From the NCBI GenBank assembly GCA_019638835.1, contig JAHBTC010000019.1, forward strand, positions 1 through 33,677: 33,677 nt of DNA, read 5' to 3'. Made by a program: the position numbers and the translations under genes. Within the stretch, counting starts at the first letter, position 1; every line of letters begins with the position of its first letter. The notes under the pieces are model-generated. The model had not been told where the DNA came from. It was given only the letters and a program-made list of their open reading frames with translations, and did not search any database. Of this stretch, positions 13,512 to 20,977 are shown piece by piece. This DNA is from Fimbriimonadaceae bacterium (GTDB lineage Bacteria; Armatimonadota; Fimbriimonadia; Fimbriimonadales; Fimbriimonadaceae).

Positions 13512-14045
13512 TTAGCGTCGAACGTTCGGGAGCGCTCGGTTCGCGAGAACGATTTGCTCCATCTTCTCCGTCGTGAGCGGATCGGCGGCGAGGCCAGGGA
13601 ATCCTTGCCAGCGGACAATCCCATCTTTCGAAATCACCATTGCGTGGGGAATGCCCTTGACTCCGACCGTATTGCCCGTGCGGCGTTGCTCGTCTGTCGC
13701 CACCGCATAGTGCATTTCGGTCGACTTCATGAACTCAGAAATCGTTTCCGGTTTCTCGTTGCTCAAGCCGATGATTACGAGGTCGTCCTTGAATTTTTCT
13801 TGCCATTCGTTCAACTCAGGAATCGTCGCTCGGCAGGGACCGCACCAAGTTGCCCAAAAGTCGAGCAAGATGACCTTGTTGGTCAAGTTAGGGGCTTCAC
13901 CGCTGAACCAGGTCTCCACCTCGATTTTTGGGGCGGCTTTGCCTCGGAAATCGTTCTCAGCGTACAGTTCTTTTCCCTTGACTATCTCAGGGAAGGTTGC
14001 GGCTGGTTCAGAAAGTACGGCTGCAATAAGGATTGATGCAATCAT
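13512..14045 (-). CDS. TlpA/ResA-like exported thioredoxin (copy A)
   Basis: A periplasmic thiol-disulfide oxidoreductase of 177 residues. It has a short signal-like N-terminus (MIASILIAAVLS), then the AhpC/TSA-thioredoxin fold with LLDFWATWCGPCR (active-site CGPC near residues 68-71), IIGLSNE, and the cis-Pro loop GIPHAMVISKDG. The family reduces cytochrome c or exported protein cysteines. ATG 14045 lies six bases after TAATTT, so the mRNA is probably leaderless. A close paralogue occurs at 19510-20028 on the other strand. The start lies about 50 bp beyond the terminator of the lipoprotein at 14147, so this is its own transcription unit. Confidence 0.92.
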   Translation of the reverse strand: MIASILIAAVLSEPAATFPEIVKGKELYAENDFRGKAAPKIEVETWFSGEAPNLTNKVILLDFWATWCGPCRATIPELNEWQEKFKDDLVIIGLSNEKPETISEFMKSTEMHYAVATDEQRRTGNTVGVKGIPHAMVISKDGIVRWQGFPGLAADPLTTEKMEQIVLANRALPNVRR

Positions 14046-15751: not shown

Positions 15752-18016
15752 ATGAATGGATGGAGGTTGACCTGCGCATGGGCTGCGGCCCTCATTCCAT
15801 TCGTTCTCGCTCCCGCCCTCTTGGCGAATCGTCCCGCGATTTCCCCCCAGTCCGGCCCCGTCACATTCGAGAAAGATGTACTCCCGATCTTTCGGGCACA
15901 CTGCACGAACTGCCACGAAGAAGGGAATGATAGCGGTTTTCTAGACCTGACGAACCGAGAACTGATCCTGGAGGGCGGAAGAAGTGGCCCCGGCGTAATC
16001 CCCGGTGACCCGGAGAAAAGCATTTTGCTGCGACGGGTTCTGGGGCTCGATGGGAAGCCACAGATGCCCAAAGGGTTTGGCCCCATCAGCGACGAAAAAA
16101 TGGCCACGATTCGGGTCTGGATAAGCCAGGGGGCTCTCGCAACCCCGGCAGGTACCGATACGCGACACTGGTCGTACATTCCTCCGGTTCGCCCCGAAGT
16201 TCCTGAGGGTGCAGGTTCACCGATTGACCGACTTGTCGAAGCAAAACTGGCAGAGCAGGGCCGATCTTTCTCTCCTGAAGCCGACCGTGAAACTCTAATC
16301 CGTCGCGTCTCGCTCGACTTGACCGGATTGCCTCCGACTCCCGAAGAAATCGCATCGTTTCTTAGCGATCGTGAGCCGGATGCCTACGAGAGAGTTGTCA
16401 ATCGCCTACTAGACAGTCCTTCGTACGGTGAGAGAATGGCAAGGCCTTGGCTTGACCTTGCCCGGTTCGCCGACACCAATGGTTACGAGAAAGACGAAAG
16501 ACGCCAAAACTGGGCTTGGCGCGATTACGTGATTCGTTCGTACAACGAGGACAAACCGTTCGACCAGTTCACACGTGAGCAGATCGCCGGAGACCTGCTC
16601 CCTAATGCAACGCGAGAACAACTGATTGCCACCGGATTCCATCGCAACACCATGCTCAACCTGGAGGGGGGAACCGATCCAATGGAGCAGCGATGGCTTG
16701 TCCTTGTTGATCGGGTCGCTACGACCGGAACAGTTTGGATGGGTACATCTTTCGGATGCGCGCAATGTCACGACCACAAGTTCGACCCGATTTCCCAGAA
16801 GGAGTTTTATCAGTTGTTGGCTTTCTGGGAGAGTGCTGACGAACCCAGTCTTCCCCTCGCCGAAACGGAAACTAAGCCATTTCTTGACCGCCTGAAGGCG
16901 CGGCAGGCTTCGGTAATGGCTCTGCCGGATTCCGAACCCAAAAGAGTCATTCTCGCCGAGATTAAGGCCCAGATTGAAGCATTGCCCCAAAACCAGACGC
17001 TGATCTTTCAGGAAAGCGATCGCACCGCCGAAACACCGATTCGGAACGGCGGTGTCTATCTCAGCCCAGGCGAAAAGGTTGTCCCCGGGGTCACGACACG
17101 GATCGCACCTTGGTCGGAGTCGTATCCGAAGAATCGGCTTGGTCTCGCCGAGTGGCTGATCTCACGCGAGAATCCGCTCACGGCACGAGTACAGGTCAAC
17201 CGAGTTTGGGAACTGTTCTTTGGACGAGGGCTTGTCAAGTCGTTAGGAGACATGGGGACTCAGTCGGAGGTGCCGGTGCAAGGGGCGCTTCTGGATTATC
17301 TCGCGGTTGAGTTTATGGACGGGAGTTGGCGGTTGAAGCCCCTGATCAAGCAGATCGTGATGAGCCGGACATACCGCCAATCTAGCGCGATGACCGAAGA
17401 TGCGCTCGGCTGGGATCCCGAGAATGTCTATTTAGGTCGCGGAGCAAGATTTAGGATGGAGGCGGAGATGATCCGCGACAATGCCTTAGCGATCGCCGGC
17501 CTTCTTGATACAACTATTGGTGGGCCGAGCGCATTTCCAACCCAGCCTGAAGGGATCTGGAATATTCCTTACAACGGAGATCGCTGGCCGATCGAACTGA
17601 GCAGCGATCGCTATCGCCGGGGGATCTACACGTTCTGGAGAAGAACGTCGCCGTACCCTTCCTTCCTTTCGTTCGATGCTGCGAGCCGGGAGGTTTGCCT
17701 CCCTGGTCGAACGCGCACGAATACGCCTCTGCAAGCGCTGATTACGCTTAATGATCCGGTCTTCCTTGAGGCCGCTTCTGGACTCGCAACCCGAATGAGA
17801 GAAGCGGACGATGAAACGGTCTCTAGGATTGAGCGGGGTTACCTGCTTGCCCTTGCCAGAAAGCCATCCGCCGTCGAAACAAACCTTTTGGTTGAGTATC
17901 AGAACGCGCAAGAAGAAAGACTAAGATCGGATGGCGCGCGAGATGCAGAAGGTGAGTCTTGGCGGTTGGTTGCAAGCGTTCTGCTGAACCTTGACGAGAC
18001 GATCACAAAGGAGTAA
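15752..18016 (+). CDS. Planctomycete-type cytochrome C / DUF1549 / DUF1553 protein
   Basis: A 754-residue exported protein with an N-terminal signal peptide (about 1-25). The PSCyt1 domain carries haem-binding CTNCH (Cys51, Cys54, His55). DUF1549 (PSCyt2) spans about 155-350 ([31 protein letters not shown]) and ends with a second CxxCH (CAQCH, 336-340). DUF1553 (PSD1) runs from about 455 to 735 ([24 protein letters not shown] begins it). The family is abundant in Planctomycetes, Verrucomicrobia and Armatimonadota and is usually paired with DUF1501, as here. A role in periplasmic electron transfer or polysaccharide handling is guessed in the field, not shown. The gap between DUF1549 and DUF1553 is short, with no added sugar-binding domain. 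Confidence 0.93.
18007..18013 (+). promoter_or_regulatory. Strong Shine-Dalgarno for DUF1501 gene
   Basis: AAAGGAG ends seven bases before ATG 18021 and overlaps the last codons of the upstream gene. It fixes the start and contrasts with the leaderless first gene of the unit. Confidence 0.8.
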
Positions 18017-18020
18017 CCGC

Positions 18021-19478
18021 ATGACAGAACGTGAGATAAACGAGTTAGCTTTAAAGCACATCACGCGCCGGCACCTCTTCAAGATGACGAGTTACGGCAT
18101 TGGCACTCTCGCTCTTGGCTCGATGCTCAATCCCAAACTATTGGGAGCGACTCCGCCGGCCGAGAATCCTTTTGCGGTTCGGCCGCCCCACTTTGCACCA
18201 AAAGCAAAGCGTGTGATTTTCTTGTTTATGGCCGGAGCGCCGTCCCAACTTGATCTCTTCGATCCCAAACCAAAACTGAACGAACACGATCGGGAGCCTA
18301 TTCCGGAATCCTTCGTGGAAGGCGAGCGATTTGCATTCATCAAAGGCACGCCGAAACTGTTAGGATCGCCTCACAAGTTTGCCCAGCATGGTCAATCCGG
18401 GCAGTGGATAAGCGAGCTACTGCCGTATACCGCCAACGTGGCGGACGACTTATGTGTGATCCGGAGCGTCGTGACCGACCAGTTTAATCACGCTCCCGCC
18501 CAGATTTTTTCCATGACCGGGCACCAACTTCCTGGTCGGCCCAGCATTGGTTCTTGGCTCCTTTATGGATTGGGCGCCGAATCCCAAGACCTTCCCGGGT
18601 TCGTGGTCTTGGTGAGCGGAATCAATAATCCGGACGGGGGCAAAGCCCTCTGGAGTAATGGGTTCCTCCCATCGCATTACCAAGGGGTTGAATTCCGGAG
18701 CAAGGGTGATCCCGTACTCTACGTATCCGATCCCGAGGGTATGGATCGCACCTCACGTCGGGAGATGCTTGATGTCATCCGCCAACTCAATGAGATTCAA
18801 CTGACGGAACAAGGTGACCCCGAGATCGCGACGCGAATCTCCAACTACGAACTGGCGTTCCGTATGCAGGCGAGCGTTCCCGAACTGACTGACCTTTCGA
18901 ACGAAACTCCCGAGACGCACGCGCTCTATGGCACTGCGCCGGGGCAGGTGAGTTTCGCGAACAACTGTATGCTTGCGCGACGGTTAGCGGAAAGGGGATG
19001 CCGCTTTATCCAGTTGTATCATCGGGGCTGGGATAGTCACGGTACGAGCCCCGGAGATGACATCATGGCGAGTTTGCCTGCTCGGTGCCGCGAAGTGGAT
19101 CAGGCTTGCGCTGCTCTCATTACCGACCTGAAACAAAGAGGAATGCTTGACGAAACGTTGGTGGTCTGGGGCGGTGAGTTCGGGCGGACCCCCATGAACG
19201 AAGAGAGAGACGGAAGCACTTATCTCGGCCGTGATCACCACCCGCGCGCCTTCACCATTTGGATGGCGGGAGGCGGAATCAAGCCTGGCGTGTCGTTCGG
19301 AGCAACGGATGAACTTGGTTACAACATCACTGAGAATCCTGTTCATGTCCACGATTTGAACGCGACGATTCTTCACCTGATGGGGCTCGACCATACGAGG
19401 TTAACGTACAACTATCTGGGTCGAGATTTCCGGCTGACCGATGTTCACGGCGAAGTCGTTCAGGGCATCCTCGCATAG
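18021..19478 (+). CDS. Tat-exported DUF1501 protein
   Basis: A 485-residue protein of the DUF1501 family (alkaline phosphatase/sulfatase-like fold). A twin-arginine signal is present at about 14-40 ([18 protein letters not shown]), implying export folded. Conserved family stretches include [52 protein letters not shown] and [21 protein letters not shown]; the His/Asp clusters look like metal ligands. No sulfatase C-x-P-x-R motif is seen. Four bases separate it from the DUF1549/DUF1553 gene, its usual genomic partner. The frame is open further upstream, but ATG 18021 with its strong Shine-Dalgarno is clearly the start. Confidence 0.92.
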
Positions 19479-19496
19479 CGGTTCAGGCTCAAAAGG

Positions 19497-19502
19497 TATC
19501 CT
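19497..19502 (+). promoter_or_regulatory. -10 hexamer TATCCT of TlpA-like gene B
   Basis: TATCCT, seven bases, then ATG 19510, just after the DUF1501 stop. It suggests an internal leaderless promoter. Confidence 0.5.
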
Positions 19503-19509
19503 CATTCCT

Positions 19510-20028
19510 ATGTTTGCGGCCCTGATTCTTGCGGCGGTGATGCGTCCGGTCGGCCCGGCTTTTCCTCCGATCCCTTTGGGCGTTGAGTTGGCAGCTGAAA
19601 ACGATTTGCGAGGGAAGTTTGGGCCGCGACTTTTCGTAGAAACGTATATCTCGGGCGAGGCTCCTAAGACAGACGGCAAGGTTGTGTTACTTGACTTCTG
19701 GGCGACATGGTGTGGCCCCTGCCGAGAGACGATCCCGGAACTCAACGTTTGGGCCGAGAAGTTCAAAGATGATCTGGTGATCATCGGCCTCAGCGACGAG
19801 ACTCCAGATGAGATCAAGAACTTCATGAAGCAAACGCCAATGAGATATCACGTCGCCACGGATCCATCGAGTCGGACGGCGACCGCAGTCGGCGTACAAG
19901 GGATTCCTCACGTGCTGGTGATCTCGAAGGACGGCATCGTACGATACCAAGGGGTTCCACTTGATCCCGCGAATCGGCTAACCGAGGCAAAACTTGAGCA
20001 AATCATCCGGGCGAACCGCGCTCTTTAG
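19510..20028 (+). CDS. TlpA/ResA-like exported thioredoxin (copy B)
   Basis: A 172-residue exported thiol-disulfide oxidoreductase. The short hydrophobic N-terminus (MFAALILAAVM) is followed by LLDFWATWCGPCRETIPEL with a CGPC active site, IIGLSDE and GIPHVLVISKDGIVR. It is clearly homologous along its length to copy A at 13512-14045, including the distinctive AEND-RGK and VET-SGEAP segments before the active site. The frame is open upstream into the DUF1501 3' end, but ATG 19510 gives the proper signal peptide and follows TATCCT. The last 35 bases overlap the start of the FGE lipoprotein gene, so the two are probably co-expressed. Confidence 0.9.
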   Translation: MFAALILAAVMRPVGPAFPPIPLGVELAAENDLRGKFGPRLFVETYISGEAPKTDGKVVLLDFWATWCGPCRETIPELNVWAEKFKDDLVIIGLSDETPDEIKNFMKQTPMRYHVATDPSSRTATAVGVQGIPHVLVISKDGIVRYQGVPLDPANRLTEAKLEQIIRANRAL

Positions 20029-20977
20029 CCCAATTTTGATGGTGTTGGTTTCATGCGCGCCCGCACCCGTCGCGGAGGCACCTACGCCCGCTCCGACTCC
20101 CCCGAAAGGAATGATTTACATACCAGGCGGTACGTTCCGAATGGGGAGTGACGATCCCATGTTTGCGGACGCTCGCCCGGTTCACGATGTGACGGTCGAC
20201 CCCTTCTTCATGGACGAGACCGAAGTCACGAACGATCAGTTTGCGTCGTTTGTTGAGGCCACCGGCTACGTTACGCTTGCGGAACGACCCCTAAATCCGG
20301 CCGATTATCCCGCGGTCGACCCGGCTCAACTTAAGCCTAGCAGCATCGTATTCTCACCTCCTGCGGCGGCGGTTAGCTTGTCTGATCCATCCAAGTGGTG
20401 GAAGCTAGTGCCCGGAGCATGCTGGAAGCACCCAGACGGCCCGCAATCGAACATAGAAGGGCGAGGAATGCATCCGGTAACGCACATCGCATTTGTCGAC
20501 GCGATTGCCTATTGCAAGTGGGCAGGAAAGCGGTTACCTACCGAAGCCGAATGGGAGTTTGCCGCTCGGGGAGGTCAGGACCAGAAGGAGAAGGTCACGG
20601 GCGGAGAGTCGAACACCTTTCAAGGCGAATTTCCCCACCGGAATACGCTGACCGACGGCTACGCTCTGACATCGCCTGTAAAAGCCTTCCTGCCAAATGA
20701 GTACGGTCTCTTTGACATGTCCGGCAACGTGTGGGAATGGTGTGCCGACTGGTACCGTCCCGATAGTTACGACACCCACGAAGCCAAGAACCCCGTGGGG
20801 CCGCCTTCGAGTCACAGTCCGGCCGAGCCGGGTGTTCCAATGAGGGTGCAGCGTGGCGGCTCGTTTCTTTGCGCCGATTCCTACTGCCAGCGATACAAAG
20901 TGGGAGCCCGAGGCAAAGGTGCCGTGGACTCCACTTGGTCAAATGTCGGTTTCCGCTGCGTCCAAGATATTCCCTAG
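19994..20977 (+). CDS. Formylglycine-generating enzyme (SUMF1/FGE), lipoprotein form
   Basis: A 327-residue protein. The TTG start at 19994 (GAGG six bases upstream) gives a lipoprotein signal ending LVSC (Cys21), then an Ala/Pro/Thr linker. The FGE-sulfatase domain fills 39-325: MIYIPGGTFRMGSDD, FFMDETEVTNDQF, GKRLPTEAEWEFAARGG, LFDMSGNVWEWCADWY, and RGGSFLCADSYCQRY. Cys293 and Cys298 match the copper-binding catalytic pair of human FGE (C336/C341); most bacterial SUMF1-domain proteins of other function lack it. True FGE oxidises a sulfatase active-site cysteine to formylglycine. The start overlaps tlpA copy B, and the stop overlaps the convergent gene (CTAG). No sulfatase is present in the window. 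Confidence 0.9.
   Translation: MSKSSGRTALFSPILMVLVSCAPAPVAEAPTPAPTPPKGMIYIPGGTFRMGSDDPMFADARPVHDVTVDPFFMDETEVTNDQFASFVEATGYVTLAERPLNPADYPAVDPAQLKPSSIVFSPPAAAVSLSDPSKWWKLVPGACWKHPDGPQSNIEGRGMHPVTHIAFVDAIAYCKWAGKRLPTEAEWEFAARGGQDQKEKVTGGESNTFQGEFPHRNTLTDGYALTSPVKAFLPNEYGLFDMSGNVWEWCADWYRPDSYDTHEAKNPVGPPSSHSPAEPGVPMRVQRGGSFLCADSYCQRYKVGARGKGAVDSTWSNVGFRCVQDIP

Follow-up and report, generated by a model that had tools for sequence, protein, structure and literature searches.

Gene content of the locus

The window, i.e., the whole 33,677-nucleotide stretch of DNA from a Fimbriimonadaceae bacterium that was analysed here, carries a run of genes in the order DUF1549/DUF1553, DUF1501, TlpA, and formylglycine-generating enzyme (FGE). 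The relevant features, with the basis for each call, are as follows:

15752..18016, + strand: planctomycete-type cytochrome/DUF1549/DUF1553 protein, with CLPGR inside a conserved C-x3-R motif (profile match, sequence)
17991..19478, + strand: DUF1501 protein with a twin-arginine-like N-terminus (PF07394, E=1.6e-160)
19441..20028, + strand: TlpA/AhpC-TSA-type thioredoxin-like protein with a WCGPC motif, likelier start ATG at 19510, overlapping the FGE gene by 35 bases (PF00578, E=1.7e-18)
19984..19987, + strand: Shine-Dalgarno-like GAGG, 6 bases 5′ of the FGE TTG, within the TlpA gene (sequence)
19994..20977, + strand: FGE (FGE/SUMF1 type), predicted exported lipoprotein, 327 aa (PF03781, E=3e-79; PDB FGE structures, to 2e-75; AF2 fold)
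19994..20056, + strand: lipoprotein signal sequence with lipobox LVSC, Cys21 codon at 20054-20056 (sequence; lipobox in family relatives)
20870..20887, + strand: active-site motif with Cys293 (20870-20872) and Cys298 (20885-20887), equivalents of human Cys336/Cys341 (alignment; invariant in 80/80)

The FGE open reading frame opens with a TTG codon, and its predicted N-terminus (...FSPILMVLVSC21APAP) constitutes a lipobox, the Cys21 of which is nearly invariant among relatives from the same family. Together with the hydrophobic segment preceding it, this lipobox points to an export signal, as did the first-pass annotation of this DNA, which had described an exported lipoprotein whose start overlaps a TlpA-like gene; that overlap was found as described. 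The window contains two TlpA-like paralogues (13512-14045 on the minus strand and 19441-20028 on the plus strand), which are 63% identical over 172 aa and flank the DUF1549/DUF1553-DUF1501 genes.

Assignment as an aerobic FGE

The protein matches PF03781 over nearly the entire profile (positions 3-254 of 255), far past chance, and its nearest relatives of solved structure are the FGEs from Streptomyces coelicolor (E=2e-75), Thermomonospora curvata, and human (4e-70), within a range of 2e-75 to ~1e-68. In sequence comparisons, FGE structures scored 240-257 bits, compared to 142 for SUMF2, 76 for PorK, and 63 for PvdO. The active-site cysteine pair that defines aerobic FGEs, GGS-[FY]-x-C-x4-C, is present as Cys293/Cys298 within RGGSFLCADSYC (context RGGSF-L-C-ADSY-C), and Ser290, Cys293, Tyr297, and Cys298 are invariant throughout an 80-sequence alignment, in agreement with the earlier observation of both catalytic cysteines in an RGGSF-x-C-x4-C context. 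Alignment with known FGEs would place these cysteines in the active site. The domain is PF03781 rather than the radical-SAM sulfatase_rSAM, and the protein is accordingly not an anSME.

An AlphaFold (AF2) model built on 80 related sequences reached a mean pLDDT of 93.4. The comparison with FGE structures that had been proposed as a check was run with this model in Foldseek, where the best 26 matches were all FGE structures, including that of human FGE and the copper-bound 6muj, at TM 0.85-0.87 by target length, while SUMF2, CalU17, PorK, and PvdO ranked well below. By sequence and predicted fold, the window protein is of the true aerobic FGE type.

Candidate substrates in the genome

The first-pass annotation had regarded the substrate of this enzyme as unknown, an assessment that the genome sequence does not sustain. 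The assembly (2.74 Mb, 207 contigs) contains exactly two PF00884 sulfatases (L001 and L002), both with short hydrophobic signal peptides and with the Cys-type C-x-P-x-R signature (CAPTR and CTPSR, respectively), the signature stretches being PVCAPTRASLMTG in L001 and PVCTPSRVALLTG in L002. They emerged from the proposed search for exported C-x-P-x-R proteins, the lack of which the first-pass annotation had named as grounds for doubt; the search covered the PF00884 proteins of the genome plus the window, and a non-sulfatase substrate encoded elsewhere may exist. Both are unlinked to the FGE gene, and there is no PF00884 sulfatase on the window's contig, consistent with the earlier remark that none lies nearby. 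No TIGR03942 (anSME) match was found in this genome (G000), which is 97.8% complete, so that a missed gene is possible. The sole other SUMF1 protein of the genome does not have the cysteine pair, leaving the window FGE as the only one with it. Given a single Cys-pair FGE, two exported sulfatases, and no anSME match, the simplest reading is that this FGE acts on both sulfatases.

Co-occurrence and gene neighborhoods in relatives

FGE presence, defined as a match at E<=1e-40, was surveyed across 113 genomes of the order. A sulfatase is present in all 26 FGE-positive genomes vs 24 of the 87 FGE-negative ones (Fisher 4.6e-12, with shared ancestry ignored). About nine genomes without a window-type FGE still have Cys-type sulfatases, suggesting that FGE may not be the sole route to their maturation. 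Three such genomes (G024, G026, and G027) encode one exported Cys-type sulfatase each (L050, L052, and L053), with neither a window-type FGE nor a full-length anSME match.

A sulfatase lies within ~5 kb of the FGE gene in 14 of 25 relatives (G018, G020, G012, G001, G002, G032, G096, G095, G089, G069, G066, G088, G091, and G063), some of the flanks examined ending at contig ends. In the two congeners, the FGE gene adjoins, or is ~2 kb from, a sulfatase gene whose product shares 57-58% identity with the first of the two sulfatases described above. Because a sulfatase is found near FGE in 14 of 25 relatives, both congeners included, its absence from the present locus is a local trait of gene order. 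Sulfatases are also the commonest Pfam family among immediate neighbors of exported FGEs worldwide (13/109; the next family accounts for 5). The near-identical FGE/sulfatase neighbors are 13 bp apart in G002 (L072) and ~2.2 kb apart in G001 (L071), a difference in spacing that suggests an insertion.

The window FGE is only 46-47% identical to the FGEs of its congeners (L071/L072), compared to 60% to that of G007, from another genus, and on the tree it groups with G007 and with verrucomicrobial, planctomycete, and Bacteroidota enzymes rather than with its congeners. This grouping suggests that the FGE gene may have moved between members of the family or entered it from outside. Divergent exported SUMF1 proteins that retain the C-x4-C pair occur in G011 (L075, contig C1, 2252756-2253340; RGGSWWCSKNSC) and G017 (L018; RGGSWWCSKRSC). 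The single-contig genome G011 has no PF00884 match, so that FGE-like cysteines with no accompanying sulfatase are better exemplified by G011 than by the window.

Predicted export of FGEs and sulfatases

Export was called from hydropathy and a regular-expression lipobox rule, a rule of our own rather than SignalP, with four corrections by hand. Every family relative whose N-terminus is complete shows the lipobox and the hydrophobic segment, and a lipobox is present in 10 of 14 further relatives; the N-termini of G076 and G067 resemble ordinary signal peptides, and that of G048, from another family, a signal anchor. Scanning named genomes yielded 80 FGEs, with an export signal in ~57 of 79 and none in 22; these were drawn with an exported query, which biases the exported share upward and affects its clustering less. 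Predicted exported enzymes come from Bacteroidota, Planctomycetota, Verrucomicrobiota, and others, and non-exported ones mostly from Alphaproteobacteria, actinobacteria, Myxococcota, and Chloroflexota. In a quickly built tree with many weak inner forks, the export label requires 2 changes vs 20.6 in shuffles. Sulfatases near exported FGEs carry a signal peptide in 15 of 16 cases, compared to 2 of 6 near non-exported FGEs, although these numbers are small.

Prokaryotic FGE has been stated to reside in the cytosol (PMC4505483), and bacterial Cys-type sulfatases have been placed typically in the cytosol (PMC3920027, a review). The predicted signal of the window FGE does not fit this cytosolic location, which is not a defining feature of FGEs. 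Among the papers searched, none was found to describe exported catalytic bacterial FGEs. OCTIN, a non-sulfatase structural protein, provides a known case of exported FGE-domain proteins in bacteria (PMC5915273).

Discussion

Taken together, the reconstruction strongly favors the view that the window FGE, exported and tethered to the membrane, converts the CAPTR and CTPSR cysteines of the two exported sulfatases outside the cytoplasm. In the proposed mechanism, the enzyme would be exported via its lipoprotein signal and remain membrane-tethered; by analogy with characterized FGEs, Cys293 and Cys298 would bind Cu(I) and the substrate cysteine; and O2 would oxidize the C-x-P-x-R cysteine to formylglycine with electrons from an external thiol, as established in the S. 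coelicolor and human enzymes (PMC4505483). The site of the reaction would be the periplasm or the outward-facing side of the cytoplasmic membrane, with Sec-exported sulfatases as substrates, and formylglycine conversion would probably precede the end of sulfatase folding, a parallel being human FGE in the ER lumen. Copper use, oxygen dependence, catalysis, the reaction compartment, and the sulfatase that is modified are all inferred.

Two alternatives concern the nature of the protein and of its N-terminus. Exported SUMF1 lipoproteins of the GldK/PorK and PvdO kinds do exist, and GldK tops the NCBIfam matches of the window protein; it could on these grounds be a non-catalytic SUMF1-fold lipoprotein, either PvdO-like or, in the manner of GldK/PorK, with a role in structure or binding. 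Every NCBIfam score, however, falls far under its curated cut-off (152.4 bits vs 350 for the GldK/PorK equivalog, 70.4 vs 500 for the PvdO type), FGE structures outscore PorK and PvdO (257 vs 76 and 63 bits) and do likewise by fold, and the cysteine pair is invariant in all 80 relatives, making a non-catalytic role scarcely credible. A second possibility is that the signal has been misread and that a cytoplasmic FGE modifies sulfatases before their export, which is how other bacterial maturases have been described to act. This would agree with the cytosolic placement in PMC4505483, and a start downstream of the signal is formally possible given the TTG codon; it is nevertheless decidedly improbable in view of the Shine-Dalgarno-like GAGG 6 bases 5′ of that codon, the recurrence of the lipobox and hydrophobic segment in relatives, and the clustering of the export label on the tree.

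The remaining alternatives assign roles to the neighboring genes. The DUF1549/DUF1553 protein, encoded two genes 5′ of FGE in the same tightly packed gene run, contains a literal C-x-P-x-R (CLPGR, in its DUF1553 part) that the first-pass annotation had missed, raising the prospect of an exported FGE substrate that is not a sulfatase but a product of the same operon, either this protein or DUF1501. The motif Cys and Arg are conserved in all matched copies, although the search pattern admitted only Arg or Lys at +4, which partly builds in the conservation of that residue; most DUF1553 copies read C-x-V-x-R, and Pro at +2 is rare. DUF1501, correctly described earlier as having no C-x-P-x-R, shows HAPAQ where sulfatases have C-x-P-x-R..MTG (alignment by eye) and therefore offers no cysteine. 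Among the 25 relatives, a DUF1553 homologue is near FGE only in G007 (~6 kb) and a DUF1501 homologue in none, rendering an in-operon substrate highly improbable. The TlpA-like thioredoxin has been considered as a dedicated electron donor that keeps substrate and FGE cysteines reduced in an oxidizing compartment. It has a WCGPC active site, the 35-base overlap makes translational coupling likely, and FGE turnover in vitro requires a thiol reductant (PMC4505483). The earlier suggestion that it could supply reducing power nonetheless finds little support in gene neighborhoods: of 25 relatives, 2 (G104 and G088) have a TlpA homologue close to FGE and 14 a sulfatase, and 1 of 57 exported FGE loci elsewhere has such a TlpA homologue, while the second TlpA of the window is unlinked to FGE and TlpA genes are frequent in genomes of this sort. 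A dedicated donor role is thus unlikely.

Two specific candidates were rejected. As an FGE substrate, the DUF1553 CLPGR was set aside, although not with certainty, since Pro at +2 occurs in 2 of 22 copies from FGE-positive genomes vs 2 of 27 from FGE-negative ones. TlpA as a conserved redox partner was rejected on the counts from relatives and exported loci given above; the link may matter in this one genome, even though the pairing is not conserved. FGE probably has no more than a positional relation to the DUF1549/DUF1553, DUF1501, and TlpA genes of its operon. The DUF1553 proteins themselves, i.e., that of the window (15752-18016) and the PF07587 copies in relatives, share a motif SRE-x-C-x3-R-x2-TNTPLQ, with Cys in all matched copies from both FGE-positive and FGE-negative genomes.

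With modification of the two exported sulfatases as the preferred reading, little is left of the substrate puzzle, and apart from its compartment this is an ordinary enzyme. FGE chemistry is already known; it is the predicted compartment that differs from the accounts in PMC4505483 and PMC3920027, and this question is the part worth following. To judge from their N-termini, FGE and Cys-type sulfatases both appear to be exported here and in most surveyed relatives. If both are indeed exported, bacterial formylglycine maturation would be extracytoplasmic in several phyla, and we infer that it is common in Gram-negative phyla. Such a route would prompt testable questions as to how copper is loaded, where the reductant comes from, and how maturation is coupled to folding, and it would point to new enzymes with which secreted proteins could be aldehyde-tagged. 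The more elaborate scenario, in which many Gram-negative bacteria mature Cys-type sulfatases extracytoplasmically via tethered FGEs, as a counterpart of the ER route, and the overlapping TlpA is the source of reductant here, is an outside chance.

Comparison with known systems

The FGEs of S. coelicolor (2q17, 6muj) and T. curvata (6s07, 6xtq) have the same fold as that predicted for the window FGE, with 42-46% identity over ~300 columns and a shared cysteine pair and surrounding motif. They are described as cytosolic, whereas the window FGE has a lipoprotein export signal and falls in a mainly exported part of the tree. External thiol supplies the electrons in both the S. coelicolor and the human enzyme (PMC4505483). 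Lipoproteins of the GldK/PorK and GldJ types resemble the window FGE in combining a SUMF1 domain with a lipoprotein signal, but it scores far under their cut-offs. The anSME (TIGR03942) yields the same biochemical outcome as FGE by means of an unrelated radical-SAM enzyme.

Human FGE (SUMF1; 1y1e) is soluble, resides in the ER, and has a KDEL-like partner for its retention. Equivalents of its Cys336/Cys341 are present in the window FGE, whose model it matches at the TM values given above. At the positions of the human structural disulfide 218-365, the window FGE has Cys174 and Cys322, while the human 235-346 disulfide has no counterpart. Cys174, considered as a possible sign of an oxidizing compartment, occurs in 16 of 58 exported vs 1 of 22 cytosolic FGEs (p=0.03, with ancestry ignored), its Cys322 partner being absent in half of the 16. 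Human FGE acts in an exocytoplasmic oxidizing compartment, the ER lumen, and in this respect resembles the predicted site of action of the window FGE.
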